The position numbers and the translations under genes are program-made. Shown here in pieces: positions 1,554-13,402 of a stretch of DNA of 34,506 bases. Each line of letters starts with the position of its first letter. Position 1 is the stretch's first letter. The stretch covers positions 1 through 34,506 of the forward strand of contig JAUMXK010000016.1 of the NCBI GenBank assembly GCA_030535295.1, in the 5' to 3' direction. The notes under the pieces were generated by a model, which was given only the letters and a program-made list of their open reading frames with translations, had not been told where the DNA came from and searched no databases. Source of the stretch: Eubacteriales bacterium. Its GTDB lineage: Bacteria; Bacillota; Clostridia; Lachnospirales; Vallitaleaceae.

Positions 1554-2588
1554 TCAGGAAAGCGGCTCTAATCCAAAGTCAAATAAAGCAATGTCTATTT
1601 TAATGACATTAAAGTCTTGTCTTTTGATAAAATACTCTACCACAATATCTGTCTGTGAAATCGGAGAAAAAGCATAGCCGGCTACTTTCAAAAAATCCAC
1701 CGCCTCATCCATATTTAATCGTAAGCCTACCGCCAACGCCAACATTTTTTCTTTTGACGGTTTCACCTGTCCTTTCATCAATTTGGAAAAATACTGCTTG
1801 GAAATATTTGCTGCCGAATAGACCTCCGAGTTCTTCAATCCTTTTTTGTTAATCAGTTTTTGTAAATACTCCTCAAAAGAATTGGTGTAAATCGACATTA
1901 GAGATTTTTCCAGTGATTCTTGCTGTTTTATTAATGCCGATTCCTCTGCAACCACATGGTTTCTATGCTTTCTATGAAGATAGTGCGTGCTTTGCTCGTT
2001 TAAAAACGGCATGACTGGATGGCGATATTCTTCTTCCAGTCTTTGTTTCACATATTCATTATCTATAAAATGCTGGATTGCTGTGACAGACTTCCGCTCG
2101 ACATCATCTAAAATGCCAACCGTTTCCTCCTCAAAGACCACCAGAATAATATCCATCTCATACTTTTCTAAAAAGTCGGTGAATGCCGCAATCGCTATTT
2201 CAATGCCTATTTTCTTTGGAAAACCGTAAGAGCCGGTAGCTAAAAGCGGAAACGCAATACTTTCACAATTCTTTTCCTGTGCAAGCATTAATGCTTTATC
2301 ATAGCATTGCCTTAGTAACACAGCCTCCTGATGAAGACCGTCAATCCACCAAGGACTGCTGGTGTGAATAATATATCTTGCCTGAAGCCCAAAAGCCTCC
2401 GTCAGTCCCACTTGTCCCGGCACCAGATAGCCGATGTCCTGTCTGGCTTTTAAAAGCTGTTCCACACCGGCTGCCTTATATATGGCCAAGTCAACCCCGC
2501 TCCCTATTTTAACCTCCGGATTGGCGGTATTTACTATTGCATCGGCTTTGACTTTGATAATATCATTTCTAACAATTCTAAATGCCAT
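1554..2588 (-). CDS. Macro domain protein with C-terminal HTH domain
   Basis: A 344-aa two-domain protein. Residues ~1-160 form a macro domain: it begins AFRIVRNDIIKVKADAIVNT, continues with NPEVKIGSGVDLAIYKAAG and later has PLLATGSYGFPKK, the loops that bind ADP-ribose in this fold. A charged linker (~160-235) leads to an XRE-like helix-turn-helix (~240-310; GLKNSEVYSAANISKQYFSK, then GQVKPSKEKMLALAVGLRL). Macro domains bind or hydrolyse ADP-ribose or its derivatives. Fusion to an HTH suggests either a DNA-binding regulator sensing such a ligand or a de-ADP-ribosylase brought to DNA (inference). AAGGAG precedes the ATG at 2588. It is the first gene of the macro/vWA/nucleotidase operon. Confidence 0.82.
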   Translation of the reverse strand: MAFRIVRNDIIKVKADAIVNTANPEVKIGSGVDLAIYKAAGVEQLLKARQDIGYLVPGQVGLTEAFGLQARYIIHTSSPWWIDGLHQEAVLLRQCYDKALMLAQEKNCESIAFPLLATGSYGFPKKIGIEIAIAAFTDFLEKYEMDIILVVFEEETVGILDDVERKSVTAIQHFIDNEYVKQRLEEEYRHPVMPFLNEQSTHYLHRKHRNHVVAEESALIKQQESLEKSLMSIYTNSFEEYLQKLINKKGLKNSEVYSAANISKQYFSKLMKGQVKPSKEKMLALAVGLRLNMDEAVDFLKVAGYAFSPISQTDIVVEYFIKRQDFNVIKIDIALFDFGLEPLS

Positions 2589-3679: not shown

Positions 3680-5035
3680 CTACTCTATTTCCTGCAAAAC
3701 CAAGCTGTCATCTTTCCCACTTGGATAAATCATAAAAGTTCTGGTTAGGCCCTCTTCATCCGTATAAGAAATCCCATTATTCGGAATTAATCCGAAAAAG
3801 TGGAGACCCGCAATAAATGGCCTGTTTGGGTCCAGTACATCTATACTATAAACCTCTTTAACCACATAACTTCCCTCGTTATTATCACCTTTTTCCTCGT
3901 ATTTCAAATCCAAAATCTTAAAATTCTTGACCCGCTCACTCGAAGTAAAGGTTATCTTCGCTGCGTCCTCATCATCGGCATTATACGAGTCATAGTCAAA
4001 GGAAAAATTTATCTCATCCTCCGTCGAATAATCGGCAAAAATCTTTATCAACTCAAACTCCATTTCCGAATACTCCGCAAAGTCTGAAAACGGTATCAGC
4101 CGAATCTCTTTGGCCTTATCCCTGATAGAAGCAAGGAGCGCCTCATACTCCTGCTCACTAATCTTGAGTTCCTCCGAGCTATCAATGTCCGACTCGCCGA
4201 TAATATTACGGTAAAAAGCCGGAGTTTTTACATCATCCCCCTTTTCCTCCATAAAGTAATAATCCTCATACTCTACCGACCGGGCATCGGTAACCAATGT
4301 TATCACAGCAGTAAACTCATCCAGCGGATGACCGATGTAGTTATAGTAAAACTTCCCGTCACCAATGTAAAAAAGTTTATCCACGGATGTACCAATCAGT
4401 GCAATATATGGCTCATTCTCTTCATCTATGGAGTAAATTTCATAAATCGTCTTACCATAGTGGTAGTCCCCCTTCTTCTCGTCAATGCCGCCGATAATCA
4501 GCTCCGGCACACCATCTCCACTGATGTCAATAATATTATAGCCAAATGACGCCAAACCAATCTCTGCACTGTCTTCCATCTCCTCTAATACCCCGACGGT
4601 ATCCTTATTAATATCCATCACCGTCTCTTGTCCGGTATAAGCCTGAAACACTCCCAGCATGCCCTGATTTAGATCGTCTTCCTCCATTTGAGCGGTCAGC
4701 AAACGATAATACCTTGACAATTCCTGCACATAGTAGATTTTATACTCCTTTGCTGCGGCTCGGTAGTTCTTGTCATAATTTAGATAACTATCCACTTCCT
4801 CCGGCTCATTACTTTCTTCTATTTGCTCCTTTTCGGAGCTTGCCTGCCCCTGCTTCTCTTTTGGCGTATTTTCATCCTTTGTAATAGTATCCTTTTTGTC
4901 CATTTCATTTTCTACAATCTGAGCCGGCTTATCCGGATTCTCCGGTCCGCCAAAAGGTAACTTCGGCAGACAACCACTGAATAGCAACGAAAGAATACAG
5001 GTAACCGCCAGTAAATATTGTAATTTCTTACTCAT
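3680..5035 (-). CDS. Lipoprotein with acidic repeat-like DxNxD segment
   Basis: A 451-aa lipoprotein. The ATG at 5035 has GGGGAG upstream; the frame is open further upstream but without a signal. Residues 1-22 are a type II signal peptide with lipobox LFSGC, followed by a long Pro/Glu/Lys-rich linker (~25-80) that would span the cell wall. The globular part contains IIDISGDGVPELIIGGID, an Asp-rich FG-GAP/VCBS-like calcium-loop motif. The same arrangement (VEDINEDEIPELFVGLVD) occurs in the adjacent upstream lipoprotein, so the two are paralogous over this segment. It is the third gene of the SLH/lipoprotein operon, 28 bp behind its neighbour. Surface anchoring is predicted; no enzymatic motif is seen. 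Confidence 0.75.
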   Translation of the reverse strand: MSKKLQYLLAVTCILSLLFSGCLPKLPFGGPENPDKPAQIVENEMDKKDTITKDENTPKEKQGQASSEKEQIEESNEPEEVDSYLNYDKNYRAAAKEYKIYYVQELSRYYRLLTAQMEEDDLNQGMLGVFQAYTGQETVMDINKDTVGVLEEMEDSAEIGLASFGYNIIDISGDGVPELIIGGIDEKKGDYHYGKTIYEIYSIDEENEPYIALIGTSVDKLFYIGDGKFYYNYIGHPLDEFTAVITLVTDARSVEYEDYYFMEEKGDDVKTPAFYRNIIGESDIDSSEELKISEQEYEALLASIRDKAKEIRLIPFSDFAEYSEMEFELIKIFADYSTEDEINFSFDYDSYNADDEDAAKITFTSSERVKNFKILDLKYEEKGDNNEGSYVVKEVYSIDVLDPNRPFIAGLHFFGLIPNNGISYTDEEGLTRTFMIYPSGKDDSLVLQEIE

Positions 5036-5063
5036 ACATAATCTCCCCTTTCTACCGGACTTT

Positions 5064-6713
5064 TTATATATCTTCCCCGACTTGCTCTGCAAATGGATAG
5101 CTGTCATACTCTATCTGTTTCATCGACATTACTTTGCCCTCTGCATTCGTTTTAATCTGCCACAGGCTGCATTCGTACTCAATTCTTAGTTTTTTGGGGT
5201 TCTTTATCGGTTTTACCACCTCGTAGGCTACCGCTTCCATTGGAGGTACCGATGTAATGATTTTATTTTCCGGGTCGTACATCACTTCATCTAACCACAT
5301 CCGATTGTTTTGATAATCTACTTTGCTACACATTGCATAAAACTCCGCATTCTTTTTGACAGTAGTCGTTTGCGGGTAGTCCACTGTCTTACGAAAAACA
5401 TGAACCGGTGAATCAAAGATTTCATATAGAAAACTGATACCGTTATTGATTTGATATAGCTCGATTACGATTTCACCATCGCCCAAAGCCTTGTAAGTCA
5501 ATACATAATCGCCATCAAAATTGTCGCCCACATACATCGACTTTTCCTCTTTCGGCACACTAAAATTAGTCGTTTGAAAAGAAATCGTATTGTTAAAGCC
5601 GCTTTCATCCTGAGTATAATCTAAGATGTCAATATAGCCCTCCGATTCATACTTGCCCTTATTTTTGGGGCTGGTAATCTCAAAAGAATAGGAATAATCC
5701 TCTCCAATCAAAAGTCTCGCCATTTCCTTGGACGACTCGGCATGCCAATAGGTCCATTCTCCCAACAGGAGCTGATGAATCGACTCTTCTCTTTGAAAGA
5801 CCAAAGGGTCCGTTGACTTTTCCAATGATTTCGGCGTCGGTTTCTTCCTTTTTTTCTCTTTTTCACTTTCATACTCGGAAAAAGGCGTATAGCGAACCGC
5901 TTCAATCATCATTATCAGTTCTCCCACGAAATTCTTATATACATCCGCATCCATTGCCTCCGAATGCTCCGGCTCCCAATTCTCTTTTGAGGTATAGTAG
6001 TATTTCTTTTCTTCCGGTGAAAAAACGGATTCTACAAATTTTAGGCTTTTCCCCTGCTTTTCCAGTTGATAGATTGAAAAAAATATCCCTTCCCCGCCAG
6101 ACGCTTCATTTAAAAAATAACCCTTTTGACCATTGGCCAGACAATAATACCGATCTCGCGGATTGCCGGCAAGAATTAGCGTCGGTTTTTTATTTACCAA
6201 GGTAAACATGGCATAGATACTATCCACTTCGCTGGTACCGGAATCATTATCGACTAAGCCCACGAAAAGCTCCGGTATCTCATCCTCGTTGATATCCTCA
6301 ACCGCATATCCGACGGACTCCATGATTTCCTCACGCTCCATCGTTAAAAACATCTCCCAAATCGCCGCCTTACTATCATCAATGTCTGATGTATCCTTCT
6401 CACTGTTGTAGTCATAATTCATCATAAATTGATAATACTCCTCAATCACCGCTGCATAAGGGTCTTCTGTATTGTCCTGTGAGGTATCCGAATTTTGAGC
6501 TGGCTTATTTTTCTTCTTTAAAGACTTGCTACTCCTCTCTTTTTCATCGGTTTTGCTCTCCTCTTTCTTTTCCGGTTTTTCCTTTTCTACCGAAACACTT
6601 GGCACATCCGATTTTTCTTCGGTTTGCGGATTCATCTTCGGCTGCAGAGTGCAGCCGCTTAGCGTTACCGAAAGTATTAAAGCGAATAATAATGCTGTTT
6701 TTAACTTTTTCAT
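5064..6713 (-). CDS. Lipoprotein, paralogue of the downstream gene
   Basis: A 549-aa lipoprotein. The signal peptide ends in LSGC (Cys ~21), followed by ~70 residues of Lys/Glu/Ser-rich linker. Residues ~90-270 contain EEYYQFMMNYDY and the Asp-rich loop DINEDEIPELFVGLVD, matching the neighbouring lipoprotein. A second, unrecognised beta-rich region (~290-549) begins with LLLGEWTYWHAE, which resembles the start of a lipocalin-like or calycin-type barrel. It lies 29 bp after the SLH gene and 28 bp before the next lipoprotein, so all three are probably co-transcribed and form one surface-exposed set. I do not recognise a known family. Confidence 0.75.
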   Translation of the reverse strand: MKKLKTALLFALILSVTLSGCTLQPKMNPQTEEKSDVPSVSVEKEKPEKKEESKTDEKERSSKSLKKKNKPAQNSDTSQDNTEDPYAAVIEEYYQFMMNYDYNSEKDTSDIDDSKAAIWEMFLTMEREEIMESVGYAVEDINEDEIPELFVGLVDNDSGTSEVDSIYAMFTLVNKKPTLILAGNPRDRYYCLANGQKGYFLNEASGGEGIFFSIYQLEKQGKSLKFVESVFSPEEKKYYYTSKENWEPEHSEAMDADVYKNFVGELIMMIEAVRYTPFSEYESEKEKKRKKPTPKSLEKSTDPLVFQREESIHQLLLGEWTYWHAESSKEMARLLIGEDYSYSFEITSPKNKGKYESEGYIDILDYTQDESGFNNTISFQTTNFSVPKEEKSMYVGDNFDGDYVLTYKALGDGEIVIELYQINNGISFLYEIFDSPVHVFRKTVDYPQTTTVKKNAEFYAMCSKVDYQNNRMWLDEVMYDPENKIITSVPPMEAVAYEVVKPIKNPKKLRIEYECSLWQIKTNAEGKVMSMKQIEYDSYPFAEQVGEDI

Positions 6714-8557: not shown

Positions 8558-8654
8558 CTCTCCTACCTCCTACTTTAAGTAATTTCCATTTTAATCGCTT
8601 TTCTCTATCGGATAGAAACTGCTTTTTTAAGCGTTCATCCTTTTTTACCTATAT

Positions 8655-8700
8655 AATGTATCATTAATACAAAAAAAATACCCTATCCAAAACTATAGGT
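8655..8700 (-). promoter_or_regulatory. Predicted response-regulator-dependent promoter of the SLH operon
   Basis: On the minus strand the motif ACCTATAGTTTTGGATAGGG (8681-8700, dyad CCTAT-N8-ATAGG) is followed after 17 bp by the extended -10 TGATACATT (8655-8663). The same arrangement with the same 17-bp spacing occurs at 13357-13402. No consensus -35 is present; the motif edge sits where a -35 would be, as expected for an activator site. Confidence 0.6.
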
Positions 8701-8713
8701 TTGCATAGGATAT
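8671..8713 (-). terminator. Terminator of the histidine kinase gene, overlapping the SLH promoter motif
   Basis: ATACCCTAT (8678-8686) pairs with ATAGGATAT (8705-8713), with one G-T wobble on the minus strand, followed by eight Ts. It lies just after the kinase stop at 8725. The stem overlaps the putative operator at 8681-8700. Confidence 0.6.
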
Positions 8714-8724
8714 TTTTTCAACAA

Positions 8725-10017
8725 TCAATTCCCCTTTAGAAGCGGTAATTCAATTTTCATTTTAACGCAATTTTGACAGAGAATCTCCATTTTTCCGCCG
8801 AATTTCTCAATTTTTTTGCGTAAGTCCGCCAATCCGCCGGTTTCTTTAATCGAAGCGATTTTTAAATCGGAATCATCTTCCACTTCCACTTTCAGTACAG
8901 AATCCTGTTCGGTAATCCGAATTCGGACTTCTTCGGCCTGCGAATGTCGTACGGCATTGGTAATCGCTTCACGCATTGCACTGAGAACCAGATAGCTTAT
9001 TTTTTCCTCTTTGGGCAGTTCCCCCTCCAAGATAATATTACATCCGAACACTTGTGAAGCATCGATAAAAGGATTCGATGATTTTAAACTGTGTTCCCGA
9101 CCTTCGATATTCGGCCATTCCTTTTCTTCAATGACTTCCTGCCAAATTTCGATTGGAGATACTTCATTCTGATTTTCTAAAAACAGTTGCGTTGCCAATA
9201 TTGCTTTGCCAAACTTGGCATGGGTATCAATCTTTAAATTAAGAATCTCTTCTTCTTTTCTGGATTGAATTAAATCTTTTAATAATTTCTCCTGTTTTTT
9301 CTTTTGCTCCGTCAAATTATGATTTTTTTCCTGTAACTGATTGGAAAGCTGATAAATTTGAGTAATTTCATGGGCTGAAATTTCCTGAAAATGCGCCCCC
9401 TCAAATTGAAATTCCTTTTGCTCCACCTGCCATACACTATTGTCTTTGAGCCGAAGAATAATCTCATCCTCCGTAGAATCCGGAAGTGTAATCATATCCC
9501 TTTGCATATCCCGATTTAAAATATCCTGAATATCCTCCAGACACTGAAAATCTCTTCCCGTAACCTGAAAGACAAAATCATACATTTGTTTATTTACCAA
9601 AACCGGAATTCCCTTGGAGTTGATAATACTGATTGCTTTCGGCAAATTATCAAAGGCCTCTTTAATCGAGTTAAAACTGATTTCTTTTTTATATTTGTCA
9701 TAGTTTCTTTTGATATACCGTCCGGATACCAGCAATACAGCGGTCAAGAAAAGGATTGTCAAAATGACATTTTGCCTCGAACTGAATAGGGTAAAATCTG
9801 TAATCCCGATGTTCCACTCTTTTTCATATAGAATCTCAATCATCATAAACATTTGAATAGACGAAACAATAATCAGGCCGATAAAAAAAAGGACAACTTT
9901 TTTTCCGCTTTTATTTATAAATGCAATAATAATGCTTGCTACTTCCAAAATAATCGCGATAATATAAAAAATGGATAATAGAACTTGAAAAATCGTATTT
10001 ATCTCAATAAATCTCAT
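8725..10017 (-). CDS. Membrane sensor histidine kinase (NarL-partner type)
   Basis: A 430-aa kinase. Three hydrophobic segments occur at ~10-33, 41-62 and 83-98. A PAS-like region (~115-200) is followed by a coiled coil (~220-258). The segment around H266 (IDTHAKFGKAILA) sits where HisKA_3-type kinases carry the phosphoacceptor. The ATPase domain (~335-430) has an N-box (MREAITNAVRHS, N354) and a G-box (ETGGLADLRKKI). Kinases of this type phosphorylate NarL/LuxR response regulators, and one is encoded divergently at 12057. It starts 10 bp after the upstream membrane protein gene, so the two are co-transcribed. The signal is unknown. Confidence 0.8.
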   Translation of the reverse strand: MRFIEINTIFQVLLSIFYIIAIILEVASIIIAFINKSGKKVVLFFIGLIIVSSIQMFMMIEILYEKEWNIGITDFTLFSSRQNVILTILFLTAVLLVSGRYIKRNYDKYKKEISFNSIKEAFDNLPKAISIINSKGIPVLVNKQMYDFVFQVTGRDFQCLEDIQDILNRDMQRDMITLPDSTEDEIILRLKDNSVWQVEQKEFQFEGAHFQEISAHEITQIYQLSNQLQEKNHNLTEQKKKQEKLLKDLIQSRKEEEILNLKIDTHAKFGKAILATQLFLENQNEVSPIEIWQEVIEEKEWPNIEGREHSLKSSNPFIDASQVFGCNIILEGELPKEEKISYLVLSAMREAITNAVRHSQAEEVRIRITEQDSVLKVEVEDDSDLKIASIKETGGLADLRKKIEKFGGKMEILCQNCVKMKIELPLLKGN

Positions 10018-10027
10018 AATCCGCTCC

Positions 10028-11689
10028 TTATAAAATCCTCAAATTTATTTGCACATTATCCCTATCTTCTTCGTATATCTCAGAAAATAACGCCGTTTTT
10101 CCGCCGATTTTTAAGAGAATATCTGCTTCGATAAAACGATTAATCTCGCTTCCGTTTAGCAGAACGGATAAATTAAGATAATTTTCCTCCTCTCGAATCG
10201 ACAAGAATATATTCTTTAACTCCCGAAAAAAAACTTCAATCAAATCTTGAATACATTCATAAATAGCAAATGCCTGCTCTTTTTTTATGTTTCCTCCGGC
10301 ATCCATTTTCAGACCAACATTGACTCCCATCTTTTTCAGGTTGTTTAAACTTTCCTTAATGGTTATTTCCAAGTCTTCCCCGGATATTCTGTCCTGAGAT
10401 TCTGCCAGAAAAACCAGATTACTGTAACGCTTGATATAAGTAGCGTAAATGCTGATTTCTCTCCACTTTAATTCCTCATTTCCTTGTTGACGGATATATT
10501 CCAAATTCAACTTAATTTTATTCATTTGACGATTTGTCTTTTTATTAATCACATCATAGAGCCGGTTTTTCTCCTGCATCATAATTCTTTTCTCATCAAT
10601 ATTCATCTGATTTTGAATCAGCTGTATCTCATTTTCCAGTTTGGAATTGACGGTTTCCAGCTTTTCTATCAAGCCCAATAAATTATCCAGATTCTCCTCC
10701 CAAATGACATAACCTCCGGTAATCGGACTGATATAGAGCCGGCTTTTAATATTTCTGGAAATCATACTGTCTGTTTTTAACTGTTCAAAGCTCTTGGCAT
10801 CAATTATATTTTCCTGCCCGGAATAGTAATGGGTTTTCCCGTCCTTATCTACAATCCCCGTATTCCTTGTAGAGTACCTAAAAAACTCATTATACTTGGA
10901 GTTGGAGCCGATTAATCCAATCTGGATACAACTTTCCCAAAATGCTATGGTAGTCATACAGTAGGCTATCGTAATCTCAATAAATTGAAGAAATCTATGA
11001 TTTTGGTTCAGACTGTAAAAAATACTGTAAAACACATAGATAATGACAAAAATAAAGGGGAGATAAACCCGCTCTTTGCTGGCCGGAATTCTGGATTTTC
11101 GAAACATGATATAGATGGAGGCAATGGCAAAAGAAAAAGAAAAGAGATAGGAAAGATAATAAAACAAGCCATATCCATAGGTCATACCGGCATAGGTGTT
11201 GCCTTCAAAGACAAATGCCATGCGATGAATATCATTGGTCAGCACACCTAATATTATCAAAATAGCCGGAATCAGAAATAGTTTATCGCGAAGCGGCAAT
11301 TTAGAGTCTTCTTTTTGTCCCACCGTCTGTGCAGTATAATAGCTGAAAAGCGGAATCAACACGATAGGAATATAAAATAGATACCAAAGCAGATTCATTC
11401 CTTCGTACACCGATAAAACCCGATATTTTATTGTCCGAACAAATAGCCAGAAAAACATCAGAGCTCCTACGGAGATTAAATAGAATCTGATTTTTTTATG
11501 AATAATGCGGATATATATGGAAATAATCCATGCCAAAAGCAATGCCGTATTGATAATAAAATTGATAATAAACTCAATGTCAAACAAATAACCATTCGGT
11601 TTTTCCATTCCTCGAAAAATCCCCATTACAATCATCAACAGGGTAATCCCTATGTATTTTTGATGGTTCTTACTCCATATCTTTTGCAT
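10028..11689 (-). CDS. Polytopic sensor with degenerate histidine-kinase C-terminus
   Basis: A 553-aa protein. Residues ~15-265 contain seven to eight hydrophobic segments resembling the 7TM/8TM N-terminal module of some Bacillota histidine kinases. A cytosolic PAS-like stretch (~270-330), a coiled coil (~335-375) and a region laid out like a kinase core (~375-553) follow. The expected phosphoacceptor His and the N-box Asn are not seen; the aligned region reads YECIQDLIEVFFREL. It therefore looks like a pseudokinase co-sensor for the kinase encoded 10 bp downstream. GAGG precedes the ATG, and an extended -10 lies at 11739-11747. Confidence 0.65.
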   Translation of the reverse strand: MQKIWSKNHQKYIGITLLMIVMGIFRGMEKPNGYLFDIEFIINFIINTALLLAWIISIYIRIIHKKIRFYLISVGALMFFWLFVRTIKYRVLSVYEGMNLLWYLFYIPIVLIPLFSYYTAQTVGQKEDSKLPLRDKLFLIPAILIILGVLTNDIHRMAFVFEGNTYAGMTYGYGLFYYLSYLFSFSFAIASIYIMFRKSRIPASKERVYLPFIFVIIYVFYSIFYSLNQNHRFLQFIEITIAYCMTTIAFWESCIQIGLIGSNSKYNEFFRYSTRNTGIVDKDGKTHYYSGQENIIDAKSFEQLKTDSMISRNIKSRLYISPITGGYVIWEENLDNLLGLIEKLETVNSKLENEIQLIQNQMNIDEKRIMMQEKNRLYDVINKKTNRQMNKIKLNLEYIRQQGNEELKWREISIYATYIKRYSNLVFLAESQDRISGEDLEITIKESLNNLKKMGVNVGLKMDAGGNIKKEQAFAIYECIQDLIEVFFRELKNIFLSIREEENYLNLSVLLNGSEINRFIEADILLKIGGKTALFSEIYEEDRDNVQINLRIL

Positions 11690-11738
11690 AAAATTACCTC
11701 AATCTTAGATGAATCTTGGTTTGGCTGGTGTTTGATTA

Positions 11739-11747
11739 ATTATATCA
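11739..11747 (-). promoter_or_regulatory. Extended -10 promoter element for the sensor/kinase operon
   Basis: The minus strand reads TGATATAAT, a perfect extended -10, about 50 bp before the sensor ATG at 11689. It is one end of the 74-bp repeat unit; the second repeat copy carries the same element at 11892-11900. No convincing -35 is seen. Confidence 0.55.
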
Positions 11748-11812
11748 TAAAAAAGCACGAATGAGCCAAAAATTACTTCGTAATTTTTGGTCGCGTGGGC
11801 TCTCATATGTCG
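11739..11812. repeat. 74-bp direct repeat, copy 1, with 11-bp hairpin and -10 element
   Basis: Copy 1 of a unit repeated at 11892-11965 (153 bp apart) with few differences. The unit runs from an extended -10 through CACGAATGAGCC and the hairpin CCAAAAATTAC / GTAATTTTTGG to TCATATGTCG. Flanking AAAAGCACGAATG and CATTCGTGCTTTT (ending near 11882) form a larger inverted repeat around copy 1 and the intervening hairpin. Confidence 0.85.
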
Positions 11813-11818
11813 TACTTC

Positions 11819-11860
11819 GCCCAAAGAAATCTCTATGTATTCATACCATTTCTTTGGGCT
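11819..11860. repeat. 12-bp inverted repeat between the two direct repeats
   Basis: GCCCAAAGAAAT pairs with ATTTCTTTGGGC around an 18-nt loop. No T run follows on either strand, so it is not an obvious terminator. It forms the middle arm of the three-hairpin cluster between the divergent sensor and regulator genes. Confidence 0.75.
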
Positions 11861-11891
11861 CGTCCAACGCATTCGTGCTTTTTTCGCGGAA

Positions 11892-11965
11892 ATTATATCA
11901 CAAATATACACGAATGAGCCAAAAATTACTCCGTAATTTTTGGTCACGTGGGCTCTCATATGTCG
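11892..11965. repeat. 74-bp direct repeat, copy 2
   Basis: Second copy of the unit at 11739-11812. The -10 element TGATATAAT is conserved at 11892-11900, and the hairpin differs only in its loop (TCC instead of TTC). The spacing between the -10 and the start of the hairpin block is identical in both copies. Confidence 0.85.
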
Positions 11966-11985
11966 CAATTCGTCCTTTCTCGGTA

Positions 11986-12014
11986 TTGACCATTTGTAGT
12001 TCTAATGCTATGAT
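11986..12014 (+). promoter_or_regulatory. Promoter of the response regulator gene
   Basis: TTGACC (11986-11991), a 17-bp spacer and TATGAT (12009-12014) form a near-consensus sigma-A promoter pointing at the regulator ATG at 12057. Its near-consensus form suggests constitutive expression. Confidence 0.65.
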
Positions 12015-12056
12015 AAAAATGATTCCAACGAGATAATGATAAAGGGGAAGATTTGT

Positions 12057-12704
12057 ATGTCACAGGAAAACCGTTCTCTCAAGCCGAATATCCTAATTGT
12101 AGAAGACCAGTTTATCATCAAACAGGCCATTGAAAACACTTTAAACCAAACCAATCAGTTTCATATTGTAGCTTCCATCGATAATGCTTCTCATGCGGAA
12201 GCATACTGTAAAGGGCGAAAAATTGATTTGATTATTATGGATGTTTATACCGCTCAAAGAGAAAATGGCTTGGAGTATTCTAAAAAGATTAAAGCCGCTT
12301 ATCCTAGTATAAAAATCATGATTGCCACTTCCATGCCCGAACACAGCTTTATTGAAAAAGCCATCTCTTACGGTTGTGACAGTTTTTGGTATAAAGACAG
12401 CGGTTTAATCGAGTTTTTAAGTATCCTTGAGCGTACCTTAGCAGGGGAAAAAATTTTTCCGGAAAATACTCCCGAACTGGAAATCGGTTTTGCCAAAAGT
12501 ACGGAATTTACCGCCAGAGAATTGGAAATTTTACGTGAGTTGATGAACGGATATTCGCCGCAGGAAATTGCCGAGCATCTGAACATTGCCAAAGTAACGG
12601 TACACTTCCATATCAATAATCTTCTTTCGAAAACCGGCTACGATAATAAGGTAAAACTGATTATTGATATTGCGGATAAAAAATTTATTATTCCCGGATT
12701 TTAA
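12057..12704 (+). CDS. NarL/LuxR-family response regulator
   Basis: A 215-aa regulator and the only plus-strand gene recognised. The ATG at 12057 is preceded by AAAGGGGAAG, making it better supported than the in-frame codon at 12036. The receiver domain (~10-125) has the acidic pocket E16/D17, the phosphoacceptor D62 in LIIMDVYTAQ, Thr/Ser in IATSMPE and Lys in WYKDSG. The C-terminal LuxR-type HTH (~150-210) has FTARELEILRELMNGYSPQE and IAKVTVHFHINNLLSKTGY. It is divergent from the sensor/kinase pair and is the likely partner of the HisKA_3-like kinase at 8725. The paired motifs at 8681-8700 and 13383-13402 are candidate binding sites. Confidence 0.88.
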   Translation: MSQENRSLKPNILIVEDQFIIKQAIENTLNQTNQFHIVASIDNASHAEAYCKGRKIDLIIMDVYTAQRENGLEYSKKIKAAYPSIKIMIATSMPEHSFIEKAISYGCDSFWYKDSGLIEFLSILERTLAGEKIFPENTPELEIGFAKSTEFTARELEILRELMNGYSPQEIAEHLNIAKVTVHFHINNLLSKTGYDNKVKLIIDIADKKFIIPGF

Positions 12705-12710
12705 TGCTTA

Positions 12711-12745
12711 AGGACTCTGTTCCAAAATAGGATAGAGTCCTTTTT
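12711..12745 (+). terminator. Terminator of the response regulator gene
   Basis: AGGACTCT (12711-12718) pairs with AGAGTCCT (12734-12741), followed by TTTTT, directly after the regulator stop. Confidence 0.85.
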
Positions 12746-12831
12746 AGCGGCATTTCACTTTCCACCTCTTTTTTTCTTAACCAGTCTTTTAACTTTTATA
12801 TTCCCCCACCTTTCACGCATTCCTTCTTAGC

Positions 12832-13314
12832 CTACGCCCATGGATCTTCCTTTTTCGGAATCCGAATACTTGAAAGAATTCCCGGATATTCCCAAATAAA
12901 AAATTCCTCGCCCTTTTGTCTAAGTTTAATAAATCGTTTACTGTCGGCACCGCCGGAAGCAACCAATACTTTGACATATCCCGGTTCGACATAGGATTTG
13001 TCTTCATAAGTTTGAATCGTGAGCGGTTGATTTGCCGTATAATTATTTTCCGGTGTTGCTCCTTCAAAATAAGAATACGGTAAATACAGTTTATCGCAAA
13101 GTCGGTCAGCCAAGAAATTTTCTTCATACTTACTTAAATCAATCGGTCCTTTCAAGAAATTAATCATTTCAATGCCTAATTCTTTGTTTTCAACATACTT
13201 ACATAAAGCCAATAAAAACAGTGCTGAAACAGCATAGGGATCTTTTAAAGAGAAATTTCCCATGTTTCTAAATTCCTCCAAACTATCCGGTACTTTTTCA
13301 AATACATATCTCAT
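12832..13314 (-). CDS. DUF6935-like small protein
   Basis: A 160-aa cytosolic protein. The ATG at 13314 follows AAAGGAG by 8 nt; the frame is open eight codons further upstream. The pattern MRYVFEKVPDSLEEF, then ENFLADRLCDKLYLPYSYF, GATPENNYT and a C-terminal KKEDPWA matches, from memory, the DUF6935 family of Clostridia, whose function is unknown. No catalytic motif is evident. It is a single-gene unit bounded by terminators on both sides. Its promoter carries the same 20-bp motif and -10 as the SLH operon, so it probably belongs to the same response-regulator regulon. Confidence 0.7.
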   Translation of the reverse strand: MRYVFEKVPDSLEEFRNMGNFSLKDPYAVSALFLLALCKYVENKELGIEMINFLKGPIDLSKYEENFLADRLCDKLYLPYSYFEGATPENNYTANQPLTIQTYEDKSYVEPGYVKVLVASGGADSKRFIKLRQKGEEFFIWEYPGILSSIRIPKKEDPWA

Positions 13315-13356
13315 CTCTCTCTCCTTTCCTTCTAGCACTTTCTTTTTTGTAATCTC

Positions 13357-13402
13357 AATGTATCATCTTTTGCCAAGAAATACCCTATCTAAAAGTATAG
13401 GT
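13357..13402 (-). promoter_or_regulatory. Predicted response-regulator-dependent promoter of the DUF6935-like gene
   Basis: On the minus strand ACCTATACTTTTAGATAGGG (13383-13402) lies 17 bp upstream of the extended -10 TGATACATT (13357-13365). It matches the SLH operon promoter at 18 of 20 motif positions, in the whole -10 element and in exact spacing. The predicted start of transcription is about 36 nt before the ATG. Confidence 0.6.

Follow-up and report, generated by a model that had tools for sequence, protein, structure and literature searches.

ComA of B. subtilis, a NarL-type regulator of a Gram-positive bacterium like the candidate considered here, requires hexamers spaced by 4 bp, with half-sites 10 bp apart (PMC4797271). 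The inverted repeat that we describe has the same 4-bp spacing between its hexamers, and of the ComA promoters named for comparison, srfAA and rapA, the latter is an extended -10 promoter with a class II component, a further likeness to the present sites (PMC4797271). However, it is the geometry alone that is similar: the ComA elements read TTGCGG/CCGCAA and those found here CTATMN, so ours are not ComA sites, and ComA promoters, unlike the present ones, carry both a direct repeat, which is the class II site, and an inverted repeat, which acts as a class I site. In the NarL-dependent E. coli promoters yeaR and ogt, a dimer site lies in or next to the -35 region of a simple promoter, as it does here; the ogt site is centred at -44.5, and the 7-2-7 heptamers of NarL sites are close to the 6-4-6 spacing described below but of other sequence (PMC7419079). 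The ogt NarL site abuts a -35 element, whereas the present promoters have none. The lux box is a 20-bp imperfect dyad centred at -42.5, as at two of our sites (PMC7585371), but quorum-type LuxR proteins carry an autoinducer-binding domain where our candidate has a phosphoreceiver, and the present system is therefore not of the lux/quorum type.

In this report, we analysed a window of 34,506 nucleotides from an Eubacteriales bacterium of the Vallitaleaceae (contig JAUMXK010000016.1), in which a 20-bp motif precedes two transcription units; a third, diverged copy lies on another contig of the same genome, C133. In our judgement, the motif is very likely an operator. The operator set very probably consists of three promoters (the window SLH/lipoprotein operon, the DUF6935 gene and an SLH/lipoprotein operon on C133), and these very probably represent a genuine regulon of small size, for which the neighbouring two-component system is the most likely controller. 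The best explanation, which we hold to be reasonably probable, is that the adjacent NarL-type regulator uses the motif as a class II activator operator at all three promoters. The kind of switch and system is ordinary; the sequence of the element, the target set and the restriction to this species among three genomes appear to be new.

Two copies of the motif in the window

ACCTATA-N-TTTT-N-GATAGGG occurs twice in the window, on the minus strand in both cases, and the coordinates that the initial annotation had given for it, together with its 17-bp distance to TGATACATT, proved exact for both copies. The copies had also been said to lie upstream of genes on either side of the sensor/kinase/regulator block, and the SLH operon and the DUF6935 gene do flank that block, as listed here.

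3680-5107, minus strand: second lipoprotein-like protein of the SLH operon, 475 aa
5064-6713, minus strand: lipoprotein-like protein of the SLH operon, 549 aa
6743-8557, minus strand: SLH-domain protein, 604 aa, first target
8655-8663, minus strand: extended -10 TGATACATT of the SLH/lipoprotein operon, without a -35 hexamer
8673-8718, minus strand: inverted repeat and T tract enclosing copy 1, a terminator-like RNA hairpin
8681-8700, minus strand: putative operator copy 1, ACCTATAGTTTTGGATAGGG, centred at -42.5 from the inferred start (~8648) of the SLH/lipoprotein operon
8725-10017, minus strand: histidine kinase, weak HATPase match
10028-11689, minus strand: HisKA_7TM sensor protein, no recognised HATPase domain
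11986-12014, plus strand: regulator promoter, sigma-70-like TTGACC-N17-TATGAT, without the operator
12036-12704, plus strand: candidate regulator, a NarL-type response regulator (receiver and GerE HTH)
12832-13338, minus strand: DUF6935 protein, second target; likely start the ATG near 13314, behind AAGGAGAGAGAG
13357-13365, minus strand: extended -10 TGATACATT of the DUF6935 gene, without a -35 hexamer
13383-13402, minus strand: putative operator copy 2, ACCTATACTTTTAGATAGGG, centred at -42.5 from the inferred start (~13350) of the DUF6935 gene

A single-sequence fold model of the DUF6935 protein (pLDDT 46.5) was of too low a quality for use, and no paper on DUF6935 was found in the literature consulted. 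Elsewhere in the window, positions 1554-2588 (minus strand) encode a protein whose N-terminal part is a Macro domain and whose C-terminal part weakly matches HTH_3.

Read along the minus strand, the composite of copy 1 (8700 to 8655) is ACCTATAGTTTTGGATAGGG-TATTTTTTTTGTATTAA-TGATACATT and that of copy 2 (13402 to 13357) is ACCTATACTTTTAGATAGGG-TATTTCTTGGCAAAAGA-TGATACATT. These 46-mers of operator, spacer and -10 are identical at 36/46 positions, against 30-32 identities for the best background pairs in the window; their differences are concentrated in the spacer, whose first eight bases (TATTTnTT) are almost common to both, and outside the 46-mers the two copies have little sequence similarity. 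Three other 46-mer pairs in the window outscore the operator pair, one of them a near-perfect local repeat (11756/11909). Near the window end, the pairs 33909-33954/34107-34152 and 27565-27610/33385-33430 match at 41/46 and 37/46 and are dispersed or local repeats. As direct repeats 4.7 kb apart, the two operator copies might be ascribed to a recent local duplication, or simply to chance, but either origin is scarcely credible: the operator and the -10 are preserved in sequence that is otherwise unrelated, both in the flanks and over most of the spacer; these parts are conserved again in the third copy, beside a gene set that diverged long ago; and simulated genomes do not reproduce the composite.

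Copy 1 also resembles a terminator, one that would serve the kinase genes. Its hairpin (-18.9 kcal/mol, z -4.8) is followed by UUUUUUUU and lies ~25 bp past the kinase stop codon, so that it has the stable hairpin and U tract after a stop codon that define an intrinsic terminator. This arrangement would suit a dyad that acts at the RNA level, as a terminator or attenuator hairpin, yet we find such a role very improbable: the folds of copies 2 and 3 are no more stable than those of shuffled sequences (z 0.20 and -0.13), every copy lies ahead of the inferred transcription start, a strong terminator hairpin of its own already stands before copy 2, behind an AbgT gene, and copy 3 lies between divergent genes. 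The folds of copies 2 and 3 refute an RNA hairpin as the common explanation; the feature common to the three is thus the DNA site, with the terminator an extra at copy 1. Around copy 1 there is an additional upstream half-site, CCTATGCAAACCTATAG (8692-8709, minus strand), forming a CCTAT direct repeat with a 10-bp period. A palindrome, TCTATCCGATAGA (8602-8614, minus strand), whose arms CTATC/GATAG resemble the operator half-sites, falls within the 5' leader inferred for the SLH operon.

Genome-wide occurrence and a third site

By itself, the dyad CCTAT-N8-ATAGG is a chance-level pattern, both in the window (with mismatches) and in the genome (exact), where 3 sites were found in 2.46 Mb versus ~2.2 expected. 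No third exact dyad was found in the window; that of the genome, on contig C57, was rejected, as it follows the stop of a reading frame, has longer arms (AAAACAGCCTATT/AATAGGCTGTTTT), is then T-rich and by eye is terminator-like. The fixed-spacing combination of the dyad with an extended -10, in contrast, is not due to chance. When the genome was scanned for this strict composite, as the initial annotation had proposed, it was found at the two window promoters and nowhere else, versus 0.009 per simulated genome (3 matches in 326 simulated genomes), a figure that alone overstates the case because the pattern was derived from the same two sites. The composite was absent from the other genomes of the family, and no convincing similar dyads were seen near relatives of the module or regulator in other families; an exact scan of named genomes gave one match, in an alphaproteobacterial MAG, which is about the chance expectation.

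When the 20-mer was used on its own as the query, leaving out the -10, the genome yielded two more sites, C133:23077-23096 with 2 mismatches and a site on contig C64 with 3. The C64 site was set aside, as it runs into the beginning of a reading frame and lacks an extended -10 in register. A relaxed composite (CTAT-N8-ATAG, N15-21, TGNTANNNT) gave exactly three sites in the genome, all with the central TTTT, a form expected 0.012 times per genome, and counts in the other family genomes were at control level. Composites with <=3 mismatches, searched with both spacings over the whole genome, yielded nothing above reversed controls beyond the three sites. The genome is a draft, 89.6% complete, and additional regulon members may be missing from it.

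The C133 site, AACTATACTTTTGGATAGTG, is intergenic between divergent genes and stands 16 bp before an extended -10, TGATAAATT, which places its centre at -41.5. Its start lies 157 bp upstream of the start codon of a gene whose 551-aa product has three SLH matches; a lipoprotein gene follows. This lipoprotein is 33% identical over 374 aa (E 6e-64) to the second window lipoprotein (475 aa) and has weaker, distant homology to the first (549 aa), and between the C133 and window SLH proteins significant alignment is confined to SLH-type stretches and their surroundings. At C133 the outer base pair is altered on both sides (CCTAT/ATAGG to ACTAT/ATAGT), so that the symmetry is preserved, as would be expected of a dimer site. 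Because this site was found without using the -10 element, it strengthens the case for a regulon. The earlier statement that there is no other copy in the window is thus correct as worded, although the genome does contain another.

Promoter geometry and the sign of control

Re-cut into hexamers, the operator reads CTATAS-TTTT-RGATAG, a 6-4-6 inverted repeat with half-sites 10 bp apart, which occurs in the forms CTATAG-TTTT-GGATAG, CTATAC-TTTT-AGATAG and CTATAC-TTTT-GGATAG. With +1 set 7 bp after the -10, the operator centres at the three promoters fall at -42.5, -42.5 and -41.5 relative to these inferred starts, the position of a class II site. None of the three promoters has a -35 element, the best hexamer at 16-18 bp spacing having <=3/6 matches to TTGACA, and the -10 hexamers (TACATT, TAAATT) deviate from the consensus. 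An absent -35 with the operator in its place would, given the inferred starts, be the layout of an activator-requiring promoter. A regulon built on the dimer-type dyad that had been placed at the -35 position on the strength of two copies is well supported, and the third promoter has the same arrangement. A sigma-B-like promoter, considered in view of GGGTAT in both window copies, was rejected, since by eye no GTTTAA-like element stands at the proper distance.

Extended -10 promoters can function without a -35 element. On this ground, and because the site overlaps the polymerase footprint, the same regulator could be a repressor whose binding at -52 to -33 would keep RNA polymerase off promoters that depend on their extended -10. 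We judge this improbable: with imperfect -10 hexamers and no -35, basal activity should be low, and a centre at -42.5 or -41.5 is the classical activator position. Activation by the regulator is more likely than repression on the present sequence evidence.

The candidate regulator, its block and two congeners

The candidate regulator exceeds the cut-offs of the Pfam domains Response_reg (59.7 bits) and GerE (55.4 bits), and has its phospho-acceptor Asp in LIIMDV, the domain make-up of the NarL/FixJ family. Its nearest solved structures by sequence are VraR, DesR and NarL, but VraR and DesR have different sensors and targets, and it falls short of the threshold for each of the named orthologue groups listed. 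A sensor-kinase-regulator order on one strand was seen in nine loci read from other genomes and in two further loci of this genome; the window module differs in that the regulator is divergent from the kinase genes. Another sensor/kinase/regulator module lies on contig C113 of this genome (G000:C113, L061, 1-3200), where the regulator is cut by the contig end and is 61% identical to the G001 regulator over the part present. The operator is absent upstream of the regulator and kinase genes, and so no autoregulation ties the block to it.

The genus comparison comprised three genomes, this draft and two congeners. Both congeners keep the SLH gene (68-69%) and DUF6935 (45-54%), and the operator is absent from both, including from these orthologues; their promoters, where they could be placed by eye, are sigma-70-like, with TTGACA...TATAAT before the G002 SLH gene. 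Neither congener has an orthologue of the regulator, the best matches being orthologues of the C113 and C65 regulators of this genome, and neither has a full-length match to the C133 SLH protein. In each of the three genomes, as far as sequence comparison tells, either both operator and regulator occur or neither does.

The initial annotation had named the divergent NarL/LuxR regulator as the obvious candidate activator. Linkage, geometry and the joint absence in two congeners speak for it, and the identification is circumstantial. Against it stand the small number of sites, three in all, the missing operator at the block's own genes, and the failure to find similar sites near the regulator's relatives from other families. 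It is possible, though in our estimate rather unlikely, that some other regulator, another NarL-type protein or a one-component dimer, binds the operator and that the block merely lies between two targets. The genome does hold several other NarL-type regulators (9 matches), and the third target is on a separate contig, with no NarL-type regulator seen in the 9.7 kb of C133 read; but two of the three sites flank the sensor/kinase/regulator block, and this regulator and the operator are both missing from the two congeners, where the other two close regulators have orthologues.

We therefore prefer the adjacent regulator as the one that acts at these promoters. The neighbouring kinase and 7TM sensor would lead to phosphorylation of this NarL-type protein, which would bind the 6-4-6 repeat as a homodimer, in the place of the -35 at three promoters that have only an extended -10, and would recruit RNA polymerase as a class II activator. 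The sequence, the spacing, the genome-wide rarity, the third site, the dyad-preserving substitution and the co-absence in two congeners were observed; the transcription starts, the identity of the regulator, activation over repression, the order of the phosphorelay and the signal are inferred.

On a wider view, which we offer tentatively and think doubtful as a whole, a three-protein relay (a 7TM sensor without a recognised kinase domain, a kinase and a NarL regulator) with a private operator might control two SLH/lipoprotein operons and a DUF6935 gene in one species, with the congener orthologues under ordinary promoters, and copy 1, lying in the kinase-gene terminator, could couple regulator binding to read-through. 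The 7TM sensor/kinase/NarL system type recurs across the order; no described target was found for it, and a limited literature search found no SLH operons under such a system. The present sites would give this system type a defined operator and a three-operon target list, and would connect it to how SLH proteins of the cell surface, with the lipoproteins that accompany them, are controlled. A regulon in one species, absent from two congeners despite common SLH and DUF6935 genes, would be a modest example of regulatory rewiring.

The region that separates the regulator from the divergent kinase genes contains a 150-bp element (11741-11890) with a very stable branched fold (-53.4 kcal/mol, z -9.2) and no Rfam match. 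A partial second copy (89%) adjoins it at 11894-11975, and another copy is found on contig C84 (93% over 151 bp). The element looks like a dispersed structured repeat, and it may be linked to the inverted orientation of the regulator.
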